A stretch of DNA of 64,000 nt from assembly GCF_038443385.1 (NCBI RefSeq), contig NZ_CP151726.1, positions 1,674,001-1,738,000 of the forward strand, given 5' to 3'. How positions within the stretch are numbered: the first letter of the stretch is position 1; every line of letters starts with the position of its first letter. Source of the DNA: Stieleria varia (GTDB lineage: Bacteria > Planctomycetota > Planctomycetia > Pirellulales > Pirellulaceae). Shown in pieces: positions 14,187 through 30,239 of this stretch. A program made the translations under genes and the position numbers. Below the pieces are notes generated by a model that saw nothing but the letters and a program-made list of their open reading frames with translations, was not told where the DNA came from and searched no databases.

Positions 14187-16526
14187 ATGTGTAATATGCG
14201 GCTCTTAGGATTCGTTTTTGTGGTGGCGGCCATGTTGGCCGCTACCAAGGTTTCTGCCGCCCCTGAAGAGATCGAGTTTTCAGACCTTGCGGATCCTTTG
14301 GCCGTTGTCTTTGATGATCCCTACAGAGACATGGGGTTCCAACTGCTGAACGAGTTGAAGCTCATTCTGCAGGTGGATGAGAGACTCGCGCAAAACGATT
14401 TCCCTGAAGATGAGCGTGCCCGGCTCGAAGCCCGGCGCACCGCGGCGAAGGACATGCTGGAGATCAACGGTTACGACGTCGATGAGCTGATCGCCCAACG
14501 CTGGGAGGTTGCCAAGAAGCGGAAGGCCGCACTCATGGCCACGAACCCCGCGCTGGACAAGGTCGAGGTGACGCTGTCGGGCTATCTGATCCCTGCGCCG
14601 CAGGCCCCAGATGGCAACTACTACGGCTATCTGGTCTCGCAGGTGGGGATGTGCAGCCATCTTCCGCCGCCTCCGCCGAACGAACTCGTGCGGGTAAAGT
14701 TGAAAGAAGATCCGCAGGGCCAGTCTCTCTATGTGCCGGTTCAAGTCTCGGGCCTGCTGCGTGTCGAAGCAAGCGATGCCACCATCTTCATCCTCGATGG
14801 AGAGTCGCGGATGTTCAGCGGCTGGACCCTGGATGCCAACACCGTCGAGCAAAGAGAAGATTTGCGCGATGATAGCGCTGTGAATGCGTTCCATCAAACG
14901 TTCACCAACGGCATCGACTTGGCGGCCTCCACTGATACTGATACGGCCTCCCCTGATGCAGCCTCCGCTGATACGGTGCAGCCAATCACATGGAGAAATC
15001 TCGTCCCGCAAGTTGAGATTGATAACGATCCCTTTCTCGAGTTGACCTCTGATCAGAAACTCGACCTCGTGATAGCCTCCAGAATACGGGAGCTACAGTC
15101 GGAGGGCGTGGACATTACGCCAGAGCAAATGGAGAAGCTCACTGGCGCAGTAGAGCGGCTTGAAGCGGACGATATCGATATGGATGGTCTGATCGCTTTG
15201 CGCGGAGAGATCGTCGCCCAGCGGACGCACGCGATGGCGGCGGTCAACGGCACCCTGAACGGCAAGCAGGTGCGACTCGCCGGTTATGTCCTGCCACTCG
15301 GGACAGGTGGGGAAAAGATCACGGAATTCCTGCTCGTTCCATGGGTAGGTGCCTGCATCCACACGCCTCCGCCGCCTCCGAACCAGATGGTTCACATCTC
15401 GGTTCCCGGCGGGATGGAACCGCGAGGGCAATTCTCCCCGGTGTGGATCGAAGGAACGATCGAAGTGAAACCGGCGAGCTACGACCTGTTTCTCGTCGAT
15501 GGCAGCATGCCGGTGAAAGTCGCCTACACCATGGTGACCGATGTTATCAGCGATTATTCGGCTGCGGAGTCGGACGACCTCGCCAAGGTGGAGATTCCCG
15601 AGAGTGCCTTCGAGGGTCACAGCTGGTTACAAATAGCGCAGGCGAAGGTTTCCCTGGTTTTCACCCAGGCCATGAGCGGCCTTCGCGACGATGGCAGCAC
15701 GAAGGCCTTCTGGTTCGCGATCCTGGTGGCCTTCGGCTACGGTCTCGTGCACACGCTTGGTCCCGGCCATGGCAAGGCGGTAGTGATCTCCTACTTTGTT
15801 GGCGATGGAGGCAGCTTGCGCAAAGGCTTAAGGATGGGAGTGTTGATCGCGGTCTTTCATGTCCTGTCCTCGATCATCGTTGTGTTGGTGATGGATTTTG
15901 CGGTGAGGCAGGCCACCGGCCAGGCTCCTTCCGACTACCGCGCCATCCGCCTCGGCAGCTACGTCCTGATCATGGCCATCGGAGCCGTGATGTTGCGCAG
16001 TGCGATCCAAGCCTCGAGACAATCGCGGAAAAGCGTGGATTCTGAAACGGGTGATCACACCCACGCCGATCATGATCACCATCACGAACATCATGGTAAC
16101 AGCGACGCCCATGCTCATCACGACTGCCTCGCCTGCTCCGCGCTGGAGAAAAAGAACAAGGGTGCTGGCACGTGGCTCGCTCTCGCGGTGGGAGTCGTTC
16201 CCTGCACTGGCGCGCTCTTGGTGCTGCTCTTCGGCGTGGCCAACGACCTCCTCTTTCCTGCCATCCTGATGGTCGCTGCCATCTCCGCGGGAATGGCACT
16301 CGCCATGTCCGGCATCGGCGTGCTCGCCATCCTCGGCAGGCGCTTCGCCATCCGCCGGATGAAGGCTGACGATCCTCGGCGGGCTCGCTTCACTTCCGGA
16401 TTGCGGATTACCGGTGCGGCGTGCGTGCTCCTGATCGGAACCTTACTCTTCGGCCTGACCTACTCCAATGCCAGTCAACTGACAGTCCCAACACCGTCTT
16501 CGAGTCTCAGCGCCACTCAGCAATAG
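14187..16526 (+). CDS. Fusion of two DUF3299 domains with a NicO/RcnA-type metal transporter
   Basis: A 779-residue protein. After a signal-like N-terminus ('MRLLGFVFVVAAMLAA', possible start also at 14196) come two copies of a domain with the DUF3299 signature: 'LSGYLIPAP' plus 'SHLPPPPPNELV' at about residues 130-210, and 'LAGYVLPL' plus 'CIHTPPPPPNQMV' at about 350-450. The C-terminal ~270 residues are a polytopic membrane domain with 'HTLGPGHGKAVVISYF', the characteristic motif of NicO/RcnA nickel-cobalt transporters, and a His-rich cytoplasmic loop ('DHTHADHDHHHEHHG') followed by 'HHDCLACS'. DUF3299 proteins are normally separate lipoprotein-like genes of planctomycetes and proteobacteria. 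The duplicated PPPPPN domain may bind or deliver metal on the outer side. It begins 33 bp after the beta-lactamase gene. Confidence 0.85.
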   Translation: MCNMRLLGFVFVVAAMLAATKVSAAPEEIEFSDLADPLAVVFDDPYRDMGFQLLNELKLILQVDERLAQNDFPEDERARLEARRTAAKDMLEINGYDVDELIAQRWEVAKKRKAALMATNPALDKVEVTLSGYLIPAPQAPDGNYYGYLVSQVGMCSHLPPPPPNELVRVKLKEDPQGQSLYVPVQVSGLLRVEASDATIFILDGESRMFSGWTLDANTVEQREDLRDDSAVNAFHQTFTNGIDLAASTDTDTASPDAASADTVQPITWRNLVPQVEIDNDPFLELTSDQKLDLVIASRIRELQSEGVDITPEQMEKLTGAVERLEADDIDMDGLIALRGEIVAQRTHAMAAVNGTLNGKQVRLAGYVLPLGTGGEKITEFLLVPWVGACIHTPPPPPNQMVHISVPGGMEPRGQFSPVWIEGTIEVKPASYDLFLVDGSMPVKVAYTMVTDVISDYSAAESDDLAKVEIPESAFEGHSWLQIAQAKVSLVFTQAMSGLRDDGSTKAFWFAILVAFGYGLVHTLGPGHGKAVVISYFVGDGGSLRKGLRMGVLIAVFHVLSSIIVVLVMDFAVRQATGQAPSDYRAIRLGSYVLIMAIGAVMLRSAIQASRQSRKSVDSETGDHTHADHDHHHEHHGNSDAHAHHDCLACSALEKKNKGAGTWLALAVGVVPCTGALLVLLFGVANDLLFPAILMVAAISAGMALAMSGIGVLAILGRRFAIRRMKADDPRRARFTSGLRITGAACVLLIGTLLFGLTYSNASQLTVPTPSSSLSATQQ

Positions 16527-17075
16527 GACAGCCCGGCAGCCTTAGTGCAGTCCGGTTAGAGAAGCCACTGCCGCGTCCAAGATGCTCTCGAGCGGGCGTA
16601 ATAGTTACCGCCGCCGATTCGCTGCACATTCACCCCAAACTAGTCCGGCATCCCAGGGAAACTGCATCGAATTAATTTGGCAAAGGCGCGGAGATCGATG
16701 CAACCGCCTCACGATTGAGCGAGCGAACTCGCGTCGCTGTCTAGAAGATCCCATGCCTGCTCCGGCGTCGGCCGCTGGTGCATCGATTCGGGTGCCACTT
16801 TCGTAACACATCACGGTTCGTCCTGAGCACGCATTGGCTGCGCCAACTGACTGGACTTGTTCGAAGCCGGCGATCTTTTTTTGATGAACGAGTCGCCATG
16901 GACTTAACGCGGCGAAGGACTCATGGAAGCCAGTAATAGCTCGAGTTGTTTCGCAATCCACGCACCTCGGCGCAATCCAAATCGTCAACTGCCTTCGCTA
17001 TCTGAGCCGACTTTTGGGGTAGAAAGTGCCCTCCCCTTTTGGTAGATTCGCCTGCGAAAGACCAGTTCTGCTCCA
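16527..17075. other. Intergenic region without recognisable gene
   Basis: About 550 bp. Both strands contain frames of 60-127 codons, but their products are Arg/Ser/Cys-rich, lack a convincing start and show no known motif. No clear terminator or repeat arms were found. It marks the boundary between the hydrolase cluster and the methyltransferase cassette. Confidence 0.5.
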
Positions 17076-17414
17076 ATGAGGTGCGATATCGTGACCAAAC
17101 GTGTCAAACGCTCTAGTTCAATCAATTCTCAACCGAGCTGCCTTCTTCGGCTGTCAAAATCGTTGAAGAGCCGCCTGCAACCGAGTGAGGGTGCTCGTCC
17201 GGGGCGTCCATCAGACCCAACCTGGAACCAATATGGGAAATTGCCGATGAGTGACGAAACAGCGAAATTGCTGGGCGATTTGGCAAGTCATCTCAGCTCT
17301 GAAGATCGGAAGATCAGTCCGATGCAGGTAGCAGCGCATCTCTTGGAGTTGCAGCTAAGAAAGTATTCGGTGTCAGATGCAAAATCGAATGGCACTGCGA
17401 GCAAGTGTGCTTAG
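17076..17414 (+). CDS. Small basic protein upstream of the methyltransferase
   Basis: A 112-residue protein. The N-terminal 45 residues are basic and low in structure ('TKRVKRSSS'), then 'GARPGRPSDPTWNQYG' leads to a helical part ('DETAKLLGDLASHLSS', 'KISPMQVAAHLLELQLRKY'). The helical half could be a small DNA-binding or protein-interaction module, for instance a regulator of the methyltransferase, but no HTH or ribbon-helix-helix pattern is certain. A GTG at 17091 is an alternative start. The gene ends 43 bp before the methyltransferase and on the same strand, which supports an operon. I do not recognise the family. Confidence 0.55.
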   Translation: MRCDIVTKRVKRSSSINSQPSCLLRLSKSLKSRLQPSEGARPGRPSDPTWNQYGKLPMSDETAKLLGDLASHLSSEDRKISPMQVAAHLLELQLRKYSVSDAKSNGTASKCA

Positions 17415-17457
17415 CCATGGATTGGGCTAGGCGGTTACTTTACAGGTGTAGTCCGCA

Positions 17458-20082
17458 ATGAAACTTAGCACCGTCAAAACGCAGCTCGTCGCTTGTGGCT
17501 ATCGTCCTGATTGGTTGCGTCACGACTACCGATTCCGAGATGACCAAACGGTGAAGCCGTTGGTGGGGTTCGCTCAGTTGCCGTTTGATGCACGCAGTTC
17601 TTGCATCGCAGTGCTAGAGTCAGAGGGCGATCCAAGACGCGAAGTTGAGCAATGTCGTGCGACTGGGGCTCCGCTGGTTTTTGTCTGCACAGACAATTCG
17701 TTGCTCTGGTGGACTCAGGGAGTCGGCAAAGCGCAATTCAAAGAATCCATCAGCGAAGATCGAGTCGAAGAATTTTTCAAGGATCGAAAAGACGACTTCT
17801 CACCCAACGCGATCTACCGTGCGAAAACTTGGGGCAGATTCCGTAGCGAATTTCAACTGAGCTTCGTTGACGCCGGATTGATGCCGTTGGTCGAGGAGGA
17901 AGTTGGCACTTCACTGGAACGGCTGATTGAACGAAACGTGACGACAACAAAGTCGCGACTCGGGTGGGATGCAATCTCCGAACAGCAAGGCCACTGGCTG
18001 CTGAAGTCGGTCTTCTGGCTGGTGTCGGCAAAGATTCTGAGAGACAAAGAGGTACCAAATTTCGAGCAACTCGATTTATTGGATGTCGACGCCGTGTTTG
18101 CGGCGCTTGCCGGCCACTATGGGACACCCGCCATACCGATTAGCTCCAAGGCGAAGCATAATGCGATTGCTCTCGTTGCTCAGGACATTGCACGATTCAG
18201 CAACCTTGCGATGACAACGACGGAAGCGTTGGCATACGTCTATGAGAATACATTGATCTCCAAGGCAACTCGCGCCGAATTGGGGACGCACAGCACACCG
18301 GCGTACTTGGTCGACTACATCGTTGGTCATCTTTCCGATTGGATTCAGGAAATCCCAGAGGAAAACCGCAGCGTGTTCGAGCCTGCGTGCGGCCACGCGG
18401 CATTCTTGGTTTCGGCGATGCGATTGCTGACAGAATTGCTTCCCGAAAACAAAGCAACGCCCGGCAGGCGACGGCAGTACCTTCGCAAACGGATTCATGG
18501 ACTCGACAAAGACGCCTTTGCGTTGGAACTGGCTCGCTTGGCATTGACGCTGACCGATCTGCCGAACCCCGATGGTTGGGATTTGGAAGCGGAAGACATG
18601 TTCCTCACAGATGACATCGAGACTCAAGCGAAGTCCAGCACGATCGTCTTGGCGAATCCACCGTTCGAGAATTTTTCGGAGACCGAACTACAGCACTATG
18701 CGGCGAGAGGGGCGCCACCGACCGTTCACAACAAAGCTGTCGAGATGTTGCGGCGGACTTTGGCGAACATGCAACCGGGCAGCGTTTTTGGGTTTGTGAT
18801 GCCGCAGTCGATGCTTCACGGTCGCTTCGCTCGTGACGTGCGGAAGTCGATGCTGGAAGATTTCGAGTTGCGTGAAATTTCGCTTTTCGCCGATAACGTC
18901 TTTAGCTTTGCCGACGTTGAATCCGCCGTGCTCATTGGCCGACGAACAGCAAGGGCGAAAGCATCAAGCTCGAAGGTGCTTTTTCAGCGAGTCCGCGAAT
19001 GGGAAATGGATCGCTTTCGATCAGCCTACGAGTCGTCAAATCCAAAGCATGTGCCGCAGACACGGTTTGTGGAGGACAACGAATGGGATATGAGAGTCCC
19101 TGATTTGGAAGAAGTGTGGTCGCATCTGGCAGAGAATGTTGCAATCGCAAAGCTGGCAACAATGGGTAAGGGACTTGAGTACAAAGGGAAGTTTTTGGAG
19201 AAAGGGTCGGAGACAATTTCGATCGAGCCATTCGGCCAGTCGGTTCAAGGCTTTGCAAAATTCTCGCCGCCGGATGTTGCATTGCATTCGCTCCCGACGA
19301 TGTATTTCATGAGTCTCGATGAGCAAGTTATTCGCCGACCTCAAACAGGGACCACCACTTGCACCCCTCAGCTACTTGTAAACTACGCACCTGTATCTCG
19401 AGGTCCATGGCGACTCAAAGCACTTCTCGATGAGAAAGGCCATCCGGTTACAAGTCGTTTTATCACGGTGCGATCAGAGAAGCTGTCACTGCAAGCCGTA
19501 TGGGCAATTCTCAATTCGCCAATCGCGAACGCCTTTGCATTCTCCTACCTTGGTAAGCGCGACAACATCGTTGGCGTTATGCGAAAGATACCGATGCCAT
19601 CGACATCTGACTTTGCCGCGGTGCACGCGGCGGTCGATCGGTATTTTGACGCAGCACGAAGTGACGAATCGGCTAAAATCACGCAGCAACTTCTGGCGGA
19701 GGTCGATGCTGCTGTCCTGCGCCAATACAACCTGCCCATCGATCTCGAATACCAGCTTCTTTCACTCTTCGATGGTTGGGATCGACTGGGTGTGCCATTC
19801 AAGCAATCCGTCCTGCTTCCCAAATCGCTTGCTGGCAAAGTTCGCTTCAGCGACTTCGTGCGTTATGAAAAAGACTGGCGGAAAACGAATCGACGTCGTG
19901 GCCATTTGATCGACAAGAAGATCGACGAAACGATCACCAAAGACGAACGGATGGAACTGGAAGGACTTCAAGCGTACGCCGAGTATTACTTGGATCGCGA
20001 GACGCCGTTACCAATGGGCGAATTGGAAAAGGCCGAAAATCTTCTGTTGGCGAGTGCCGCGAATAAAGGTGACGAACGTTGA
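17458..20082 (+). CDS. N6-adenine-type DNA methyltransferase with degenerate nuclease-like N-terminus
   Basis: An 874-residue class I SAM-dependent DNA methyltransferase. Motif X-like 'GTHSTPAYLVDYIV' at residues 276-289 and motif I 'FEPACGHAAFL' at 307-317 bind SAM; the catalytic motif IV is 'ANPPFENF' with Asn400-Pro-Pro-Phe403. The C-terminal ~300 residues, with 'IPMPSTSDFAAVHAAVDRYF', are a target-recognition-like region as in type I and IIG enzymes. Residues ~35-90 ('CIAVLESEGDPRREVEQC', 'LVFVCTDNSLLWW') follow the pattern of the N-terminal nuclease domains of type IIG/HsdR proteins, but ExK is changed to ExE. The enzyme should modify adenine in a specific DNA site. Its stop overlaps the start of the HNH gene. 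Confidence 0.85.
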   Translation: MKLSTVKTQLVACGYRPDWLRHDYRFRDDQTVKPLVGFAQLPFDARSSCIAVLESEGDPRREVEQCRATGAPLVFVCTDNSLLWWTQGVGKAQFKESISEDRVEEFFKDRKDDFSPNAIYRAKTWGRFRSEFQLSFVDAGLMPLVEEEVGTSLERLIERNVTTTKSRLGWDAISEQQGHWLLKSVFWLVSAKILRDKEVPNFEQLDLLDVDAVFAALAGHYGTPAIPISSKAKHNAIALVAQDIARFSNLAMTTTEALAYVYENTLISKATRAELGTHSTPAYLVDYIVGHLSDWIQEIPEENRSVFEPACGHAAFLVSAMRLLTELLPENKATPGRRRQYLRKRIHGLDKDAFALELARLALTLTDLPNPDGWDLEAEDMFLTDDIETQAKSSTIVLANPPFENFSETELQHYAARGAPPTVHNKAVEMLRRTLANMQPGSVFGFVMPQSMLHGRFARDVRKSMLEDFELREISLFADNVFSFADVESAVLIGRRTARAKASSSKVLFQRVREWEMDRFRSAYESSNPKHVPQTRFVEDNEWDMRVPDLEEVWSHLAENVAIAKLATMGKGLEYKGKFLEKGSETISIEPFGQSVQGFAKFSPPDVALHSLPTMYFMSLDEQVIRRPQTGTTTCTPQLLVNYAPVSRGPWRLKALLDEKGHPVTSRFITVRSEKLSLQAVWAILNSPIANAFAFSYLGKRDNIVGVMRKIPMPSTSDFAAVHAAVDRYFDAARSDESAKITQQLLAEVDAAVLRQYNLPIDLEYQLLSLFDGWDRLGVPFKQSVLLPKSLAGKVRFSDFVRYEKDWRKTNRRRGHLIDKKIDETITKDERMELEGLQAYAEYYLDRETPLPMGELEKAENLLLASAANKGDER

Positions 20083-20687
20083 TTCAAGGCTTTGATTATC
20101 CCACGGAGCCACACGTAAGACGACATGGCCCCGCGGGCTACACCAACTACGAAAGCTACCGGCCATGGCTGCGCGATGAGTTTCTATTCCGCTGCGTCTA
20201 TTGCCTGAATCGTGAGAAATGGTGCTCCGACGCTATCGCTTTCAATATCGACCACTTTTTGCCTGTTTCGGTCTCGCCTGATCTGAGTTGCGAGTACACG
20301 AACTTGCTGTACGCATGTGCTCGTTGCAATCTAGCGAAATCGGACATTGTTGGCATTGCTGATCCTTGCCAAGTTGCGTACGGCGACTGTCTGGTGATTA
20401 GGAGAACGGGAGTGATCCAGCCGCTTAACAAGCACGGCATCAAAATTGCCGATTCACTGGCGTTGAACATGGAGTCCCGAGTTGATGCACGATATCGATG
20501 GATTCGGCTTCTCGAAGATTTGCGTGCCTCGATGCCTGATCACTACCGTGAGTACGTGGGGTTCCCAACACTTCTTGACGATCTGCGGCCACCTCGACTC
20601 CGTCCGCCATTCAACAGTATCCCCGATAGCGTGAACGATTGCTTTTTTGTGCAGCGGGAAGAAAATCGAATTGCTTCGACCTACTAA
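20079..20687 (+). CDS. HNH endonuclease partnered with the methyltransferase
   Basis: A 202-residue protein starting from TTG at 20079; this start overlaps the methyltransferase stop (TTGA), indicating translational coupling. The HNH/McrA-type fold is evident: 'RCVYCLNREKW' supplies the first zinc CxxC, 'FNIDHFLPVS' the catalytic His pair region, and 'NLLYACARCNLAKSD' the Asn, the second CxxC and the end of the motif. The C-terminal 100 residues are helical and unassigned ('RYRWIRLLEDLRASM'). HNH proteins nick or cut DNA in a metal-dependent way. Pairing with a specific adenine methyltransferase suggests that it is the restriction component of the cassette. I am sure of the fold; the restriction role is inference. 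Confidence 0.85.
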   Translation: MIQGFDYPTEPHVRRHGPAGYTNYESYRPWLRDEFLFRCVYCLNREKWCSDAIAFNIDHFLPVSVSPDLSCEYTNLLYACARCNLAKSDIVGIADPCQVAYGDCLVIRRTGVIQPLNKHGIKIADSLALNMESRVDARYRWIRLLEDLRASMPDHYREYVGFPTLLDDLRPPRLRPPFNSIPDSVNDCFFVQREENRIASTY

Positions 20688-20893
20688 TTGCCTTGATCCG
20701 AACAATCAAGAGTCAGGGATTCGTCCAAGTCACTCAGCGGGTCGCTTGGCAACAGTTTGCCCGAGCCGCGGGAAGTACACTGAAGAATGCCATAAAACTC
20801 GTCGGCCTGAAATTGCTCATGCACAAGGCATGATGCCTATCCATCGAAGCCCGACGTGTGCGTAATGCGGGAGTGTCCTCAGCGCGATAATGA

Positions 20894-21106: not shown

Positions 21107-22327
21107 ATGAATGAGATTGTCGTCAAAGGTTCGGACATCATTATCCTGGCAATCTTGGTTCTCGCGGTTGGGAATGGGATCACGCAGAAGTTTTCGTTGC
21201 TTCGCAAGTTCAGCATTCCCATTGCCGTGACGGGAGGACTTCTGTGTGGCATCGCCGTTGCATTGATCGCAACCTTCGGCGGCCCGAAGATTGTGTTTGA
21301 CCTGATCATCCGCGATACGCTGTTGATGGTGTTCTTTACGACGATCGGAATATCAGCCAAGTTTTCGCGTCTGGCAGCCGGCGGCAAATCTTTGGGGCTG
21401 CTCGTCCTCTGTGCCGCCATCTTTCTTGTCGTTTAGGACGCAACGGGCGTGCTGCTTGCCAAGGCATTTGGCGTTCATCCGGGATACGGACTTTTTGCCG
21501 GGAGCGTTTCGCTGGCGGGCGGCCACGGAACAGCGATCGCCTGGGGGAACGACGCCGAGGCCGCAGGACTGCAGGATGCTGCGTTGGTCGGCATCGCGTT
21601 TGCCACTTTCGGTTTGATCGCCGGCGGAGTCGTTGGTGGACCTGTCGCGGAGATGTTGATCCGCCGACACAAGCTCTCCCCAACTGGCGAAGCGAACATC
21701 ACAACCAGCGATTCGTCCGAGCAAAAAGAAGAGTCAGGGTATTCACTGCACAGGGCACTGAGCCTGATGCTGGTGATTGCGATTTGTCTCTCCGTCGGCG
21801 AAGTCATTAATCGTTGGCTTTTTGCCAATGATATCAAGCTTCCCGGCTTTCTGACCGCCATGTTGATCGGGATTGCCATCACCAACTTGGCGGACAAGGC
21901 CAAGCGGTCGCTGCCTGCCGGCGATTACGATAAAGTCGGCGAAATCGCGCTGCAGTTGTTCCTGGCGATGAGCTTGATGAGCATGGATCTTTCCTCCCTG
22001 GCCGGTGCGTTGGGCACGATCTTTGTGGTGCTCTGTATTCAGATACTTGTCCTGACGCTTTTCGCGGTGTTCATCATTTTTCGCGTGATGGGTGGCGACT
22101 ATGATGCGGCCGTGATCGTGGGTGGATTCTGTGGGCTAGGAATGGGTGCTACTCCCGTTGCCATTGCCAACATGACTGCGATCACTGGCAAATACGGTCC
22201 TTCTTTCAAGGCATTCCTAATCGTGCCCCTCGTCGGCGCGTTCTTTATCGACCTGCTCAACGCCGTAGTGATCAAGTTCTTCATCGGGCTTCCGCTACTT
22301 CAGCAAGCACCGCTAACAGGGGCCTGA
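21107..22327 (+). pseudogene. gltS: Sodium/glutamate symporter gene gltS interrupted by an amber codon
   Basis: The frame encodes a GltS-type Na+/glutamate symporter of about 406 codons, the normal family length. The first part ('AVGNGITQKFSLLRKFSIP', 'DTLLMVFFTTIG') and the second ('GSVSLAGGHGTAIAWG', 'MLIGIAITNLADK', 'GLGMGATPVAIANM') contain the two inverted halves with their GGHGT and GMGATP-like reentrant motifs. Codon 110 is TAG (21434-21436), in phase between 'AIFLVV' and 'DATGVLLAKAFG'. Family members have a continuous sequence here, frequently with Gln at this point, so a single CAG to TAG change explains it. The remainder shows no further damage, so the mutation appears recent. A functional split protein is unlikely because the break falls within a membrane domain. 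Confidence 0.85.
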
Positions 22328-22610: not shown

Positions 22611-22684
22611 GTAAGCGTCCACCGTAACCATTATTGACGGGCGAGTTAGGTTGGCGGGTTTCGTTCCACTTAATGGAGGAAACC

Positions 22685-23050
22685 ATGACTCGCTCTCCAG
22701 ATCCTGAACTGCGCCGATGGTGGCAGCAGTTACTTGATGCCTTTGACCCTGATCGGTCCACTGTCTCGCAGTTTTGTCGCGACAATCGGATCTCCATCAC
22801 TTCCTTCTACAAGTGGCGGAAGCGACTGCAGCAATCGAACCGACGACCCGGCAATGAGAACAAACGCTTGATTCCCGTGCGGATTGTCGATCACCAAGAA
22901 CTACTCAGCCAGTGCGCCGCACGCATTCACTTTTCCGATGACTCCCAGATGGAGATCATGGGCTCCCATGCCTTTCTTGTGCCCCAGATCGCTGCCGTGC
23001 TTGCCAACGCTCAATGCAGGCAAGCCCTGACAGATGAGGCAACATCATGA
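22685..23050 (+). CDS. tnpA: IS66 family accessory protein TnpA
   Basis: A 121-residue IS66 OrfA-type protein. The start at 22685 has a strong GGAGG (22673-22677) 7 bases upstream. The N-terminal helix-turn-helix reads 'STVSQFCRDNRISITSFYKW' followed by 'RKRLQQ', the normal DNA-binding unit of this family. The second half ('IPVRIVDHQELL', 'RIHFSDDSQMEI') is the small beta domain of TnpA. It helps the transposase in an undefined way. Stop and next start overlap by 4 bp (ATGA at 23047). Confidence 0.9.
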   Translation: MTRSPDPELRRWWQQLLDAFDPDRSTVSQFCRDNRISITSFYKWRKRLQQSNRRPGNENKRLIPVRIVDHQELLSQCAARIHFSDDSQMEIMGSHAFLVPQIAAVLANAQCRQALTDEATS

Positions 23051-23400
23051 TCGGCCTCCCGCAAGGCACCAAAGTCCTCTTTTTCACCGCGCCCACGGAC
23101 ATGAGGAAAAGCCACTGTGGGCTCTCAGGTCTCATCCGCAATGAACTCGGTGGCGATCCCGCTGACGGAACACTCTTCTTGTTCCTTAACCGCAGACGTG
23201 ATCGACTCAAAGCCCTTTATTGGGACCGAGACGGACTGGCTCTTTGGTACAAACGTTTGGAACAGGGAACCTACGAAAGGTTCCGAACCACCGAAGACTC
23301 CAAAGCCATTGAGATCGACGCAACCGACTTGGCGATGTTGCTCAGTGGAGTTTCGATTCAGTCAGCCAAGAGAAGAAAACGCTTCAGCCGGGCTGCTTGA
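23047..23400 (+). CDS. tnpB: IS66 family accessory protein TnpB
   Basis: A 117-residue protein of the IS66 Orf2 family (PF05717 type). The hallmark regions are clear: 'VLFFTAPTDMRKSHCGLSGL' at residues 10-29, 'LFLFLNRRRDRLKALYWD' and 'DGLALWYKRLEQGTYE'. The length is normal. It is required with TnpA and TnpC for transposition in studied members, but has no known catalytic activity. It overlaps tnpA by 4 bp; 120 bp separate it from the chosen start of tnpC. Confidence 0.95.
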   Translation: MIGLPQGTKVLFFTAPTDMRKSHCGLSGLIRNELGGDPADGTLFLFLNRRRDRLKALYWDRDGLALWYKRLEQGTYERFRTTEDSKAIEIDATDLAMLLSGVSIQSAKRRKRFSRAA

Positions 23401-23520
23401 TCAAAGTCGCATCAAGCCAACTGAACCACTCAAGAGCAAGCCGTAAAAAGCTTGCTCTTTTTTTGCCAAAATCTGAAAAGCGCTATTGCGCATCTGCGCT
23501 TTTTGCGTAACTTTTCAGAC

Positions 23521-25362
23521 ATGCCAAATGCAAATGAAATCCGACGAGAAAACCAACGACTCAAGCGAGAACTGTCTCGCCGAGAGGCGCTCCTTGCACA
23601 ACGTGAAAGCAAGTTCGAGCAGCAGCTCAGCACGCGAGAAAAAGAGCTCACCGAGCAATTTGATCAGCGGGTCCGCGAGCTCACCGAGCAGTTCCAGAAT
23701 CGCATGAACGAAGTCAATCGACTTCACGAAGAAGAGATCGAACAACTCAAGCTGGAACAGAAGCTTCTCATCGAACGTGTCTTTGCGCACAAGAGCGAGC
23801 GTTACATCGACAACCCCAATCAGTTGCTGTTGGAGTTGACCAGCGATGACAAGGAATTCAACTTGCAAGTGCAAGATGCCGTCGAAGGACTTCAAATTGC
23901 TGCGGACGAAGTCAACGACACGCCGCCCCGACCGCCCAGAAAGAAGATCAAAAAGCAGGGCGATGGCAAGTTCCCCGAGCACATGGTCAAGGACATCATT
24001 GACGTTGACTTGAGTGAAGAAGAAAAAGAGGGTCTCAAGCACATCGGCTACGATCCGGTTCACAAACTGCACATGAAACGGCCCGAGTTCTGGGTCGTGG
24101 AAACGCGGTACCACAAGTATGTGGATCCGAGCAAGGAAAAGCCGGGCGTTCAGAGCCCTCCACGAGAAGAAAAGCAGGGCTTTGTCAAAGGCGACCACTA
24201 CGACAGTAGCGTCGTCGCCGAAATCATCACCAATCGATTCGGCTACCATCAACCGTTCTACCGACTGCAAGATCTCTTTGGGGTCAGCGGCTGGGTTCCT
24301 TCGCGAAGCACGCTTTCCAATCTACAGTCTTCGGCGGCAAACCTGATCAAACCGTTTTTTGATTACTTGCTCGTGTGCGTGCTGCAAGACTCTGTGATCG
24401 GGACGGACGACACCGGGGTAAAACTGTTGCTTCCCAAGGTGGTCCCCGGCATCGACCCCAATGATCCTAAGAGCGGACGTGCCCACGAGGTGATCAGCGA
24501 AGCGATCCGCCAAGGCAAACGGCACGTCAATGCCAAGATGTGGGCGTACCGTGGTGTGACGGTTCCGATCAACTTGTTCGACTTCACGGTCAGCCGTCAC
24601 CGCGACGGCCCCGACCTGTTCTTTATCGATTCAGGTTTCAAGGGGACGTTACTTGGAGATTGTTACGGAGCAAACACAGGCATCGAAATGCGTTCGCGGG
24701 GTGAAGTGGTTCACGCGGCATGCAATGCGCATGCGCGTCGAGGGTTCAAGGAAGCACTGCGGACACACGAAGCGCACGGAAGATTCTTCCTGGGGTGTTA
24801 TCAAGAACTGTACGACATAGAAGACCGCGGCGCGGTAATGGATGCTGATGCGCGACTGGAGCTTCGGCAATCAGAATCATGCGCGGTGTGGAATCGGATG
24901 CGCGACTACATCGCAACGAAGACCCTGGATCTATTGCCCAAGGACAAGATGCAATCGGCGATCAACTACGTCACCAACCAGTGGGAAGCATTGACGCGTT
25001 ACATGAGCGATCCGCTGATCCCATTTGACAACAACGAGAGCGAGCAACTGATGCGTCAGGTGGCGTTGGGCCGTAAGAACTGGTTGTTCGTGGGCAGCGT
25101 CAAGAGCGGATGCGAGATGACTTGGTTGATGTCGCTGGTCAGCAGTGCGATTCGAAATCACTTGCACGTGTCGGTCTACGTGAAAGATGTGTTGGATTCC
25201 CTGCTTGCGGGCTCGACAGACTACGAGCGTCTTCGCCCGGACGTCTGGGGAGAGCAAAACCCGGAGCATCGTCGTGAATACCGCACAGCGGAGCGGGAGG
25301 CCAAAATGAAACGCAAACGCGAACAACGCGCCATCCGCCGCCTACTCAGGCAAAACACCTGA
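23521..25362 (+). CDS. tnpC: IS66 family transposase TnpC
   Basis: A 613-residue DDE transposase. The ATG at 23521 begins 'MPNANEIRRENQRLKREL', preferred over an in-frame TTG at 23452. Residues 1-90 form a long Glu/Arg-rich coiled coil (the leucine-zipper part of IS66 transposases). A 'HKSER' motif follows, then the IS66 zinc-finger position. The catalytic core shows 'IGTDDTGVKLL' (first Asp), 'LGDCYGAN' with 'AACNAHARRGF' (second Asp and the CHAH-like region), and 'PFDNNESEQLMRQVALGRKN' (Glu). No frameshift or stop is seen, so the element is probably active. Confidence 0.95.
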   Translation: MPNANEIRRENQRLKRELSRREALLAQRESKFEQQLSTREKELTEQFDQRVRELTEQFQNRMNEVNRLHEEEIEQLKLEQKLLIERVFAHKSERYIDNPNQLLLELTSDDKEFNLQVQDAVEGLQIAADEVNDTPPRPPRKKIKKQGDGKFPEHMVKDIIDVDLSEEEKEGLKHIGYDPVHKLHMKRPEFWVVETRYHKYVDPSKEKPGVQSPPREEKQGFVKGDHYDSSVVAEIITNRFGYHQPFYRLQDLFGVSGWVPSRSTLSNLQSSAANLIKPFFDYLLVCVLQDSVIGTDDTGVKLLLPKVVPGIDPNDPKSGRAHEVISEAIRQGKRHVNAKMWAYRGVTVPINLFDFTVSRHRDGPDLFFIDSGFKGTLLGDCYGANTGIEMRSRGEVVHAACNAHARRGFKEALRTHEAHGRFFLGCYQELYDIEDRGAVMDADARLELRQSESCAVWNRMRDYIATKTLDLLPKDKMQSAINYVTNQWEALTRYMSDPLIPFDNNESEQLMRQVALGRKNWLFVGSVKSGCEMTWLMSLVSSAIRNHLHVSVYVKDVLDSLLAGSTDYERLRPDVWGEQNPEHRREYRTAEREAKMKRKREQRAIRRLLRQNT

Positions 25363-25625: not shown

Positions 25626-28600
25626 TCATTCATCGGCTGCCCGCGATTTTGATGCATTCTTATAGTGTTCTCTGAGTAGTCCTTTCATCGCTTCGTCTAT
25701 CTCTGCCGTGTCATAGCCGCCCTCACCGTAATATGGCATATGCAATGGAGAATGCAGCGTGCCATCGGCGTCGACGATGTAGACTGTTGGATAGCCTTCG
25801 ATGCCCCAATCCAGTTGAAGTGGGCCATTGAGCGGTTGTGGAATGACCGTCCAATTGAGGTCACCACGTTTCGCCGCTGCGTGCAGGTGCGTTTGATCGG
25901 CGTTGCTCATGATCCCAACCACACGCACGGGAGCTTGCTTGTATTTGGCTACCAACTGGCGCATCGGAGCGTACATGTCGCCATAGTCATCGTTCACACT
26001 CAGTGCGAACATCAAAACAACGTGCTTGCCGCGCAGTTCACTCAAACGAAACGGCTTGCCATCGATATCGAATGCCTCAAGTTCTGGGGCAGGTTGGCCT
26101 ATGATGACCTTGTTGATCGCATGTGAAAGTCGTTGAGCCGCTGTGCCGCCAGTGCCATAGTGGTCAACGGTTACATCGGAATAGAGTTTGGCGAGTCGTC
26201 CCAACTGTTCGTTCAGGTCGCGACGCAACTGATTGAAGTCCGTGTTTTCCAGCGATTTGAGGCGTTGTTCAAACTCATCACGCAGTGCCGGCGGTGCCTC
26301 TTTCATCCGATCCTGGACGGCAGCACGAACCTTTGGCATTTGCGACTCGACCATTAGCGTCTCTTTGCCAAAATTAATCTGGGCAATCAGTGCCTCGGCT
26401 TGCGTCTTCCGAAAGGGACTCTTTTCCACGAGTGCTTGCAGAAGCTCGTCCGCTTGTGGAACCCAAGGCCCACCGCCCAGGCTTGCGATGATGGATTCTA
26501 AACCTTCTCGATGAAGATAGTGTTCAATCACTCGCTTGACCGCTTCCCTTCGTCCTTTGCCAGCGGGCGAATTCGCACCAGCAACACTGCGGGCCATACT
26601 GCAAACTTGCACCAGTGCCTTCAGCCCCTCGTCGGTGCCGCGGTACTTTTCTTCCATCGCCAGGTATTTCGAAGGCATGAGATGGCGAGGGTCCATCTGC
26701 TCGTACACTCGATTGAGTTCGACATCGTCGGCAGCGTCTTCGGATGCTTGCTGGTAGGCGGACCAGAGTTGGTTGGACTCCGCCTCCAGCTCGGATAAAG
26801 CTTGTTCCGCAGGAGAGAGTTCAACTGGTGGCTGTTCCGTTTGAGACAGTTCCTCTGGTTTGCTTTGCTCGCCAATCGCACCCATCCCGCCAGACTGCTC
26901 TAGTTTGCCAAAATTGAAGCCGGAGTCAGTATACGTCTTTGGAGCTGATCGGCCTTTGACTATTGGTACTTGTCTTGGCGGTTGACCTTGGTAATGGTCC
27001 AGCCTGAACTGGACGCTGTCTTTGAGCAGACGGTCAATTTCTTCTTGGGATACCTGTTGATCATAGTGCTGCTCACCATCTTCCGTTTTCCAGACTGCTT
27101 TACCGTCAGCCTCTATCACCTGCACCTTTCGAGTGCCCGTCCGCGAATATGCCAACGGAATCGTGAATTTTGCTAGCCAGACCTTTTTTCCGTTGACCAC
27201 ATCAGCTTCATAGGACTGCAATCGACAAAAATGCGCAAATGCCGAGTCTGCTTTGAAGAAGGGGCCGTCGACGGAGGTCCGAGCCATAACATCGTGAGCA
27301 GTTAGGCTCAGTAGACTGTGCCCAACATTCGCTTTCATAAGTTCGTTTGTGTGAATCGCTGCATCCAGCGGAATAACGACATCCACCGATTTGTGGACTT
27401 TTGCCTTGATGTATTTCTCGATGTCTAGGTTCACGTATTGCGGATCGAAAACGAGTCGCTCGTTGTAGGATATCGCATCAGTGCTGACCTCGATCGAAGC
27501 AGTGGACAATAACACGTTGTTTCCATTATCAATCGTTAGAACGCGAACCGGTAAAACGACCATTGTGTCGTTCGCTGCGATTGCCGTAACGGATACCGGT
27601 GCTGAGGTTCCGTCGGGGTACTTGATCTCTCCAACCTTGACGGAGGCGTGCAAATCCAGCAGCGTGTTCGGCTCGTACTTGTAGAGGTAAAACTTGCCGA
27701 TCGGCAGCGGTCCGCCCTTGGCCATTGCGATGTACCTAGTGGACGTCCGCCTCTTGGCGTCCTGCGTCTTAAACGTGAAGCCCAGCCCCCACGAACCGTC
27801 GTCGCGCAGTACTTTCTCGTCCGTGATCGTCACCGAAAACGGCCCCATTTCCGTTGCCGTGCTCGTCCATTCGAGCGGCTCGTTGTGTTTCGTTGCTCCA
27901 ATCTGCAATGCGATCACGTCTTGTGGATGCGCCTCGCACTCCAGTCGTGTTTGGGGAGCGTGCCGTTTATCTTCGGCGGAATCAATAACCCGATCGGTAG
28001 AGCCCACTGGACTCTTACCTCCAAGCGTTGCTGCAAAATCACCGCCTTGAAATATTTCGTCGACGAAATAGTCGTCCAGCAAAACGATATTGATGGCAGC
28101 GTCCAACCTGGTTCCGCCAAAGCGATCGACTTTGCTCCTCCATGTCGCGATGTCTTGCTTTGAAAGTTGGCTAAGTCGCTTGCGGTACTTGACCGCTGCG
28201 TCCTTGCTGTGCTTCTCTTGAGTGTCCGAAAATCCTGAATTCACACTCTCCTCATCAATCTCGAATAACGCGTCGGTAGAGATTACAACAAGTGGCACGG
28301 CGTAGCTCGGACCACCATTGAGATTCGCTTTGTCCGTTTGGCCGATGGCTTCACCCAGCAAAGACTCAAAAGCTTGCTTCCAAGCTTTGGCTTCCGATGT
28401 CGAAATCAATCGAGCTCGAAAGAACAGTTGATCGGCCCGCGGCGTGTTCCATTTTCCATTGTCGAACAGGACGCCCAGGTGATTGACGATGTAGGTGCGA
28501 CATGCCTGCCGCGCCATTTCGCCCTTCAGCTTGTCGCCTGTGATTCGCTCCAATTCGCCAATCCACTTGTCAAGTACACCGTCTGGCGCGGCTTCCAAAC

Positions 28601-30239
28601 GTCTGGTCAGTTCATTTCCCATGGAAACACGAATCGTTGCGCCGGATGGAATTACCGGCACTCCGCCGGGCGGCTTGGTCTGCTGGAGGTCTTTCATCAA
28701 ACGCCCATAAGGCCAATCGCCCAAGGCATTTGTTACTGGAGCCACTTTCAAGATACGGACAACGTCGTTTCCGCCTCGCTGCAGTGTGACCGAGCCGTTG
28801 TCGAGCGCAAGCCCGTCTATCTGACCGCCGATCTCGATTTTATAGTTCCCGGCTGCGACGCGAACGGACTCACCGGATTTCGAGACGGTCAGTTCTTCAA
28901 CAACCTCCGTGCCCTGAACGATGCGAATCGGAACATCGTCGATTTCCGATTCAATCGTCAACGTGCCTTTGCCTAACTCTAGCACGATCAATATCCCCGC
29001 GAAGAACAGAGCAACGCCACCGGCTGCCGCGGCGATGAATTTTCCGATCGGAGGGCGGCGAGTCCTATTTAGCGCTAGCTCAATAACTGCCTCAGGCAAT
29101 TGAACCGCTGCCGGTTGCTGCACATGAGCCAAACATCCTTCCAGCAACTCGGCAACTTGATCCGCTGATTCAAAGCGATCTTCAGCTCGCTTGGCCATGA
29201 GTCGCTCGATAATGCGACCGAGCCATTCAGGGACATCGGAGTTGATTTCGCAAACCGGAGTTGGATCGTCATTAGCGATGCGATGCAACACTCCGTAAGT
29301 CGTCTCGGCACGGAACGGCAATCGACCAGCGCACATGGCGTACAACACACTGCCGAGTGAAAACAGATCGCTGCGAGCATCGATCGGCTCGCCGCGAGTC
29401 TGCTCGGGAGACATGTACTGCGGCGTGCCTGCAATCACACCGCTGCGGGTCATCGACGCGTCATCGACGGCTCGCGCCAAGCCAAAGTCGGTGATTGTGA
29501 CTCGCTCGACGCCTTCCTCAAGCAGGATGTTCGCGGGCTTGATGTCGCGATGCACCAAGCCTTGCTCATGAGCGGCGGCGAGCCCGGCGGCGATTTGAGC
29601 GCCAATCCGCAATGTGTCTTTCAGCGGCAATGGCCCCTGTGAATCGATCCGCTTTTGCAACGAAGTTCCGCGCACGTACGGCATCACCAGAAAGGGATTC
29701 GCATCCTCGCTGGCGACACTGTGAATGGCGATGACATTGGGATGAAGGACCGCAGCGGCCGCTTTGGCTTCGCGAGCGAATCGTTTGCGGGCCGAACCGC
29801 TGCTGGCCAGATGCGGCGACATGACTTTCACGGCCACGACGCGATCGAGCGATCGATCATGGGCTTTCAGAACAACTCCCATGCCGCCAGAACCAACGAC
29901 TCCGCTGACTTCATAGCCACCGATGCGACCCAGCGATTCTGGATCATCGGTCGGCGCGAGCGTATCGAGCACTTGTCGGATGCACTGTGCCCCTTGAGTC
30001 GCCTCATCGTGGCCGCCTGTTGAATCGTCAGTCGATTCGTGCAAGGCTCTGTTTCCAAAAAACTGCTTGGCTTCGTTCCATGCGTCCGCATCCGCCGCTG
30101 CGATATCAAGTCGCTCACGACACACGACGCAATCATTCAAATGCAGTTGCAGTTCGGACTCCTCCCGGGAATTCAGTTGCCCTCGCAGGAACGTGAGCAG
30201 ATGGTCGGGGGTGCTGCAATGTTGTTGGGTCTGTGTCAT
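25626..30239 (-). CDS. Membrane Ser/Thr kinase with zinc-finger N-terminus and thioredoxin-like C-terminus
   Basis: A 1537-residue protein whose ATG overlaps the stop of its ECF sigma gene (ATGA, 30236-30239). Order of parts: an anti-sigma-type zinc motif His33-x3-Cys37-x2-Cys40; a Hanks kinase at ~107-370 with G-loop 'GSGGMGVV' (116-123), Lys138, 'VHRDIKPANI' (Asp232) and 'DFGLA' (251); one membrane segment near 395-415 ('FFAGILIVLEL'); a long external region; and at about 1385-1525 a TlpA/AhpC-type thioredoxin fold ('IGQPAPELEAFDIDGKPF', 'RVVGIMSNAD', 'GYPTVYIVDADG'). The CxxC site is replaced by 'SVNDDYGD', so no disulfide chemistry is expected. It may sense an external ligand and act on the sigma factor; that is inference. 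Confidence 0.85.
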   Translation of the reverse strand: MTQTQQHCSTPDHLLTFLRGQLNSREESELQLHLNDCVVCRERLDIAAADADAWNEAKQFFGNRALHESTDDSTGGHDEATQGAQCIRQVLDTLAPTDDPESLGRIGGYEVSGVVGSGGMGVVLKAHDRSLDRVVAVKVMSPHLASSGSARKRFAREAKAAAAVLHPNVIAIHSVASEDANPFLVMPYVRGTSLQKRIDSQGPLPLKDTLRIGAQIAAGLAAAHEQGLVHRDIKPANILLEEGVERVTITDFGLARAVDDASMTRSGVIAGTPQYMSPEQTRGEPIDARSDLFSLGSVLYAMCAGRLPFRAETTYGVLHRIANDDPTPVCEINSDVPEWLGRIIERLMAKRAEDRFESADQVAELLEGCLAHVQQPAAVQLPEAVIELALNRTRRPPIGKFIAAAAGGVALFFAGILIVLELGKGTLTIESEIDDVPIRIVQGTEVVEELTVSKSGESVRVAAGNYKIEIGGQIDGLALDNGSVTLQRGGNDVVRILKVAPVTNALGDWPYGRLMKDLQQTKPPGGVPVIPSGATIRVSMGNELTRRLEAAPDGVLDKWIGELERITGDKLKGEMARQACRTYIVNHLGVLFDNGKWNTPRADQLFFRARLISTSEAKAWKQAFESLLGEAIGQTDKANLNGGPSYAVPLVVISTDALFEIDEESVNSGFSDTQEKHSKDAAVKYRKRLSQLSKQDIATWRSKVDRFGGTRLDAAINIVLLDDYFVDEIFQGGDFAATLGGKSPVGSTDRVIDSAEDKRHAPQTRLECEAHPQDVIALQIGATKHNEPLEWTSTATEMGPFSVTITDEKVLRDDGSWGLGFTFKTQDAKRRTSTRYIAMAKGGPLPIGKFYLYKYEPNTLLDLHASVKVGEIKYPDGTSAPVSVTAIAANDTMVVLPVRVLTIDNGNNVLLSTASIEVSTDAISYNERLVFDPQYVNLDIEKYIKAKVHKSVDVVIPLDAAIHTNELMKANVGHSLLSLTAHDVMARTSVDGPFFKADSAFAHFCRLQSYEADVVNGKKVWLAKFTIPLAYSRTGTRKVQVIEADGKAVWKTEDGEQHYDQQVSQEEIDRLLKDSVQFRLDHYQGQPPRQVPIVKGRSAPKTYTDSGFNFGKLEQSGGMGAIGEQSKPEELSQTEQPPVELSPAEQALSELEAESNQLWSAYQQASEDAADDVELNRVYEQMDPRHLMPSKYLAMEEKYRGTDEGLKALVQVCSMARSVAGANSPAGKGRREAVKRVIEHYLHREGLESIIASLGGGPWVPQADELLQALVEKSPFRKTQAEALIAQINFGKETLMVESQMPKVRAAVQDRMKEAPPALRDEFEQRLKSLENTDFNQLRRDLNEQLGRLAKLYSDVTVDHYGTGGTAAQRLSHAINKVIIGQPAPELEAFDIDGKPFRLSELRGKHVVLMFALSVNDDYGDMYAPMRQLVAKYKQAPVRVVGIMSNADQTHLHAAAKRGDLNWTVIPQPLNGPLQLDWGIEGYPTVYIVDADGTLHSPLHMPYYGEGGYDTAEIDEAMKGLLREHYKNASKSRAADE

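Follow-up and report, generated by a model that had tools for sequence, protein, structure and literature searches.

A methyltransferase–HNH cassette of Stieleria varia as a candidate hybrid of restriction–modification and toxin–antitoxin systems

Type IIG and MmeI-like restriction–modification (R-M) enzymes carry a nuclease N-terminus, a connector, an N6 methyltransferase (MTase) and a target-recognition region in a single chain, and PrrC, an ABC-ATPase anticodon nuclease, is guarded by a type I R-M complex. According to PMC2610378 and PMC12707154, a type I R-M enzyme linked to PrrC keeps it silent, and a phage anti-restriction factor activates it. The survey PMC2701414 compares R-M and toxin–antitoxin (TA) systems as selfish modules and treats Xre-RES as a predicted TA pair, and a term search of the main text there returned 0 mentions of HNH. 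The locus considered here is a cassette of about 3.8 kb from the planctomycete Stieleria varia, lying in a stretch of 64,000 nucleotides (assembly GCF_038443385.1, contig NZ_CP151726.1, positions 1,674,001 to 1,738,000, forward strand; hereafter the window, in whose numbering positions are given) and consisting of three open reading frames (ORFs) on the same strand, for a small basic protein, an N6-adenine MTase and an HNH nuclease. Like DrdV, an R-M enzyme, and other type IIG/MmeI-like proteins, the MTase appears to join a nuclease-like N-terminus, a helical connector, an N6 MTase and a target-recognition region in one chain, but the cassette MTases lack the ExK motif in 15 aligned relatives and have a separate effector gene of changing type. 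As in the type II TA pairs VapBC and Xre-RES, two genes are adjacent and the first ends in a segment specific to the effector encoded by the second, although the first gene of the cassette pair encodes an 800-residue DNA methyltransferase and not a small DNA-binding domain. PrrC and EcoPrrI are the nearest functional precedent, being a linked suicide enzyme and the modification enzyme that keeps it silent (PMC2610378 and PMC12707154); in the cassette family, a single MTase bears the fused tail, and the effectors are several and unrelated to one another.

Effector partners and matching C-terminal tails

The MTase family pairs with more than one kind of effector. An effector gene lies directly 3' of the MTase gene in 19/19 members, encoding an HNH protein in 7 (the window, L003, L004, L018, L019, L020 and L021, the contig of L020 stopping within the HNH gene), a PIN protein of type A (PIN-A) in 10 (L006, L007, L008, L012, L013, L014, L022, L023, L085 and L086), a PIN protein of type B (PIN-B) in L005 and a RES protein in L011 (RES gene, Pfam E 1.5e-16). 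PIN proteins are RNases and RES proteins NAD-consuming enzymes, and neither family is known to contain sequence-directed DNA cutters. Partners were identified by Pfam for the HNH proteins of the window and L004, five PINs and the RES, and by alignment or by eye for the others. The 19 exclude L009 and L010 (25-26% identity; the same as L088 and L089), L002 (the window's own genome, 25% identity over part), L090, the short viral L015 and L016, plasmid H4-H15 (27-37% of the query) and phage H16-H18, and the repeat loci L017, L083, L084, L087 and L091 are counted once. The gene following the distant MTases L009 and L010 has a weak metallo-beta-lactamase match and may encode yet another type of partner. 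In the MTase tree, the HNH-type MTases form one clade (support 100/100), while the RES-type MTase falls within the PIN-A types from rhizobia; with its four partner types, the tree requires at least three changes of partner. In a tree of HNH proteins, the six MTase-linked ones that are long enough group together and branch as their MTases do, which, with the MTase clade, indicates that the pair was inherited together. Recurrence of the MTase–HNH pairing in other genomes had been set beforehand as a test of the preliminary description of this DNA, and the seven MTases, that of the window included, pass it.

The HNH-paired MTases end in a common tail of about 70 residues, which is alignable in 7/7 (the other six being 47-84% identical to the studied MTase over their full length) and which in the window spans residues 803-871 (19864-20070, + strand). 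This common segment led to the prediction that a gene for the tail would stand ahead of HNH genes that have no such MTase. Searching 297 genomes with the HNH protein gave 32 positive genomes and 45 matches including the window, or 41 other loci once pieces were joined, and a profile built from the 7 MTase tails found, in 39/41, an ORF with the tail immediately upstream in the same orientation. Five of the 41 are MTase-linked, four of them contributing to the profile and the fifth being a relic, so that the clean count is over 36. At these 36 loci the MTase was undetected (tblastn, about 1.5 kb on each side), and in 34 of them the tail ends the ORF directly upstream of the HNH gene. The reverse search recovered 29 tail matches in 198 genomes, 24 of which are followed by HNH. 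A profile built in turn on the 34 tails that occur without an MTase matches 7/7 HNH-paired MTases (E 1e-20 to 3e-14; 1.3e-20 for the window) and 0/12 others (best 0.014); as the rows of that profile were picked by likeness to MTase tails, the contrast between MTases, rather than the score, is the evidence. The N-terminal parts of the carriers vary among the 20/34 scanned, with GNAT (L045, L056, L071), an ArsR helix-turn-helix (L054), a weak sigma-70 region 4 (L050) and weak ribbon-helix-helix matches (L049, L061, L078), the remaining scanned carriers having no convincing family; no above-cutoff Pfam family covers the tail itself in these 20. The GNAT carriers fused to the tail are long proteins, and that of L045 also has a papain-like domain (Pfam).

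For the PIN-B type, the MTase of L005 ends in ...LPTDGASQLDHYLYGAPKRTP, an ending like that of the small proteins whose genes precede PIN-B genes. Relatives of its PIN toxin number 23, in 10/169 genomes. A plain search with the unselected last 45 residues of this MTase against the 1521 ORFs of the 23 PIN-B loci gave matches at E<0.01 in 16 loci and at E 0.02 in 18. In each of those 16 the match is the ORF that precedes the PIN gene (L126 being counted although its PIN start sits in another frame), and the sole match elsewhere below E 1 has E 0.56. A profile of MTase-free PIN-B tails recognises 1/1 PIN-B MTase and 0/18 others, and here too the contrast between MTases is what counts, since resemblance to the MTase tail had again guided the choice of rows. 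The RES-paired MTase of L011 ends in the antitoxin Xre/MbcA/ParS toxin-binding domain PF09722 (E 1.5e-4; 22.1 bits against a Pfam cutoff of 24.5). Tail and partner thus agree in 9/9 testable MTases of the HNH, PIN-B and RES types, and in these types the pair has the form of a type II TA system, two adjacent genes of which the first encodes, at its C-terminus, a segment specific to the toxin. On plasmids, distant relatives of PIN-A bear the annotation of VapC family toxins.

That tails match their effectors across three families of unrelated effectors is most readily explained if the tail binds the effector, and for RES the Pfam name of the antitoxin domain itself describes it as toxin-binding; hence the MTase can be read as a guard or antitoxin. 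On this ground the cassette is, with a confidence slightly above even, a hybrid of R-M and TA systems in which an ExK-less, type IIG-like MTase would act as antitoxin or guard of an exchangeable toxin. The MTase would read and methylate a target set by its exchangeable recognition region, its N-terminus retaining a putative nuclease fold without the catalytic motif, while its C-terminal tail, as the antitoxin-like partner segment belonging to the HNH protein of the following gene, would bind that protein and keep it in check. Inhibition or loss of the MTase, or its engagement on unmethylated invading DNA, would release the HNH nuclease, which would then cut DNA and kill the invader or the cell, so providing defence; related cassettes would use the same MTase scaffold with another tail to guard another toxin, a PIN RNase or a RES-type NAD-consuming enzyme. 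That the tails are short and stand at the very end is what fusion with a former upstream antitoxin gene would yield, and they could be fossils of such an event, with MTase and effector linked by transcription only and the effector free. Such a history is very improbable, however, given that the tail remains alignable in 7/7 HNH-type MTases and matches the partner in the nine testable ones.

Anatomy of the cassette and the two-subunit alternative

The MTase (874 residues, 17458-20082, + strand) has a type IIG-like architecture according to its ORF and Pfam, with N6_Mtase at residues 256-513 (E 5.5e-19). Motif I for S-adenosylmethionine, EPACGHAAFL, begins at residue 308 (18379-18408, + strand) and the catalytic motif IV, NPPF, at residue 400 (18655-18666, + strand), as the preliminary description had reported. 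Residues 1-245 (17458-18192, + strand; limits approximate) are assigned to a nuclease-like domain lacking ExK and then a helical connector, from an AlphaFold2 model of mean predicted local distance difference test (pLDDT) 83.5 built on 13 aligned rows; an earlier single-sequence model (pLDDT 47) was discarded. In the PDB, DrdV chains match the model best (E 0.022, prob 0.87), and chains of HsdR follow in places 11 and 49; as none reaches E <= 0.001, the matches give the nuclease fold weak but consistent support. Residues 54-56 read ESE, and E-x-K occurs at that place in 0/15 alignment rows. These rows and the fold matches weakly support the earlier reading of a nuclease-like domain with ESE for ExK, and they extend the lack of ExK to all aligned relatives. 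An intact ExK aligned with this domain in a known type IIG enzyme had been named beforehand as a second test, and as far as the sequences of the relatives go, no ExK appears. Residues 561-760 (19138-19737, + strand) are 32-72% identical to L003, against 84-100% elsewhere in bins of 40 residues, as is usual where a region for target recognition has been exchanged. The chain therefore probably unites MTase and target recognition in the type IIG manner, but the 0/15 count speaks against an active PD-(D/E)XK nuclease within it. Curated NCBIfam scores for the BREX PglX and MADS2 methyltransferases are not reached (32.8 of 500 and 29.1 of 720 bits).

The HNH nuclease (202 residues, 20079-20687, + strand; ORF and Pfam) has a TTG start overlapping the MTase stop (...CGTTGATT...), and a stop/start overlap of MTase and effector is found in the window and in L018-L021. 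Pfam PF01844 matches with E 1.2e-4, and, counted on matches of 140 or more residues, H59, C80 and C83 are conserved in 35/35 homologues, C42 in 33/35 and C39 in 32/35, in keeping with the two cysteine pairs noted before. The best defence model is PtuB of PADLOC (E 2.8e-13), a likeness to the HNH proteins of Septu PtuAB and retrons, but the protein lies far below the NCBIfam PtuB cutoff (17.4 bits against 150), and the cassette has no ATPase gene. A viral scan with the HNH protein and sequence searches of solved structures with the HNH and RES proteins, the RES-type tail and the N-terminal profile returned no matches. Among plasmid HNH matches (L034-L037), the tail was not found by hidden Markov model; the annotated loci L034 and L036 have another HNH gene context, of sensor histidine kinase, hypothetical protein and HNH, and L036:1-5390 additionally encodes an Eco57I-like N6 MTase.

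The main rival is an ordinary two-subunit R-M system, in which the MTase recognises the site, the tail is a mere tether for a restriction nuclease, and the HNH protein, having replaced the lost N-terminal nuclease, cuts the site when unmethylated. Exchange of the recognition region between close relatives, as in R-M enzymes, the weakly type IIG-like fold without ExK, the conserved HNH active-site residues and the overlapping genes all fit it. It is nevertheless rather unlikely, since the same MTase family also pairs with PIN and RES proteins, which are not known to cut DNA in a sequence-directed manner, and since the tail also occurs on proteins without MTase or recognition region, both small ones and GNAT proteins. 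An HNH protein that supplies the cleavage lost from the MTase, as proposed at the outset, leaves the PIN and RES partners and the partner-matched tails unexplained and is not the best reading. What stands of the proposed restriction or defence cassette is its defence-like character, the recurrent MTase–HNH pairing and the ExK-less N-terminal domain of weakly restriction-enzyme-like fold, in line with the exchanged recognition region, and what falls away is the HNH protein as a plain substitute for cleavage and the dependence on the small protein.

The small basic protein (17076-17414, + strand; ORF of 112 residues, isoelectric point 9.9) is present only in the window and in L003 (83% identity, the rest at E of at least 0.3) in a tblastn search of 19 loci of MTase relatives, the relic L082 included, and on this count was rejected as a required part of the cassette. 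With no family above cutoff in Pfam and none in PADLOC or NCBIfam, it was also rejected as a known antitoxin or controller; possibly it is a DNA-binding regulator. Similarity to L003 begins at GTG 17091, likely the true start.

The three genes lie as first described, in ORFs 17076-17414, 17458-20082 and 20079-20687, the HNH start within the MTase stop. The MTase of L003 is the closest relative (84% identical), and DNA similarity between L003 and the window (blastn, 14.6 kb of L003 compared) is restricted to 16877-20688 on the + strand (88% and 81% identity), broken at 19122-19380 in the target-recognition region; from this restriction, the three genes plus about 200 bp upstream look like a single travelling cassette. 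Terminal repeats of a transposable unit were sought around it, and none was convincing. Substitutions relative to L003 at codon positions 1/2/3 number 11/9/29 in the small gene, 113/63/265 in the MTase gene and 24/16/60 in the HNH gene, an excess at third positions that indicates that all three are coding and under purifying selection. A PADLOC search with the cassette proteins matched no system, only component models of general MTases and HNH proteins, and no NCBIfam model passes its cutoff for them; HsdS and HsdR subunits are absent among the three, the MTase alone matching type I M models (Pfam, PADLOC).

Objections, distribution and surroundings

Several observations weigh against the MTase as a guard. 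For the largest group, the 10 PIN-A MTases, no stand-alone partner tail was found, a search of 248 genomes at E 1e-15 having given no PIN-A relatives; a second, of 179 genomes at E 1e-8, gave two MTase-linked relatives and three weak matches. The tail is missing from 2/36 MTase-free HNH loci (L059, L081), 5/29 tail matches have no HNH downstream, no such tail was found in 5/23 PIN-B loci (L128, L129, L130, L133 and L140, the last at a contig end), and several of the HNH genes collected are incomplete or broken. The PIN-B MTase of L005 is split into two ORFs, and the grouping of MTase-linked HNH proteins has weak support (85/56). In motif I, the second glycine of GxG is replaced by alanine (GHA) in 7/7 HNH-type MTases, which makes methylation by this clade less than certain. 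Finally, co-occurrence would be seen equally if the tail served for docking or recruitment and not for inhibition.

MTase homologues occur in 6/392, 7/397, 4/75, 2/9 and 1/29 planctomycete genomes (overlapping sets, the first two including the window's own genome), and further ones in two named planctomycete metagenome-assembled genomes, three rhizobial plasmids and one IMG/VR contig. The full MTase is found in 0/4 genomes searched from the same genus, and G585, of that genus, retains only a cassette relic (L082:2575-3541) comprising MTase residues 755-869 and a broken HNH gene, with 83% DNA identity to window positions 19720-20694. In L086, the MTase frame is intact beside a PIN gene with an internal deletion and broken frames, so that an MTase can persist without its effector. 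Patchy distribution (the sets of 392, 397, 75 and 29), plasmid copies, the congener's relic and the MTase beside a deleted PIN gene would suit a pure addiction module, in which the MTase is a large antitoxin, methylation is incidental, and post-segregational killing, with no phage defence, keeps the cassette in its hosts. Retention of the MTase motifs and of an exchanging recognition region, needless for a pure antitoxin, makes this improbable.

The surroundings are those first described, with a decayed gltS and an IS66 element beside the cassette. The gltS gene (sodium/glutamate symporter, 21107-22327) is split into two ORFs, both with PF03616, and the IS66 element after it (22634-25362) has TnpB and transposase families, its first ORF being without a family. 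Farther along, 25626-30239 on the minus strand encodes a 1537-residue protein that has a Ser/Thr kinase domain and ends in an AhpC/TSA (redoxin) domain, and at lower positions than the cassette, 14187-16526 encodes a 779-residue protein with DUF3299 in two stretches and a NicO nickel-transport domain.

Novelty and meaning

The R-M and TA logics are each known already, and the inhibition that their combination in one MTase would entail is a prediction. Neither a description of such a combination nor an MTase–antitoxin fusion was found among the matches listed, in a search whose coverage mostly leaves aside subscription papers and preprints. A mycobacterial ArsR-HNH death pathway was considered as the same arrangement and rejected, as in PMC9416677 the regulator and the HNH gene are not adjacent. 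Tentatively, and with less confidence than the hybrid character itself, the family may represent a new class of immune module, in which a nuclease-dead, retargetable MTase serves as antitoxin of interchangeable toxins (RES, PIN of two types, or a DNase of the HNH kind), every toxin docking by way of the antitoxin tail proper to it, and in which loss of methylation or unmethylated DNA arms the toxin.

If true, an MTase bearing a toxin's antitoxin tail would be a direct link between R-M and TA systems, and control of a toxin by methylation state would become testable. The two-gene module of partner tail and HNH, present in this bacterial class at 34/36 HNH loci that lack the MTase, and the rule that toxin type may be predicted from tail type offer a means of searching for such systems.

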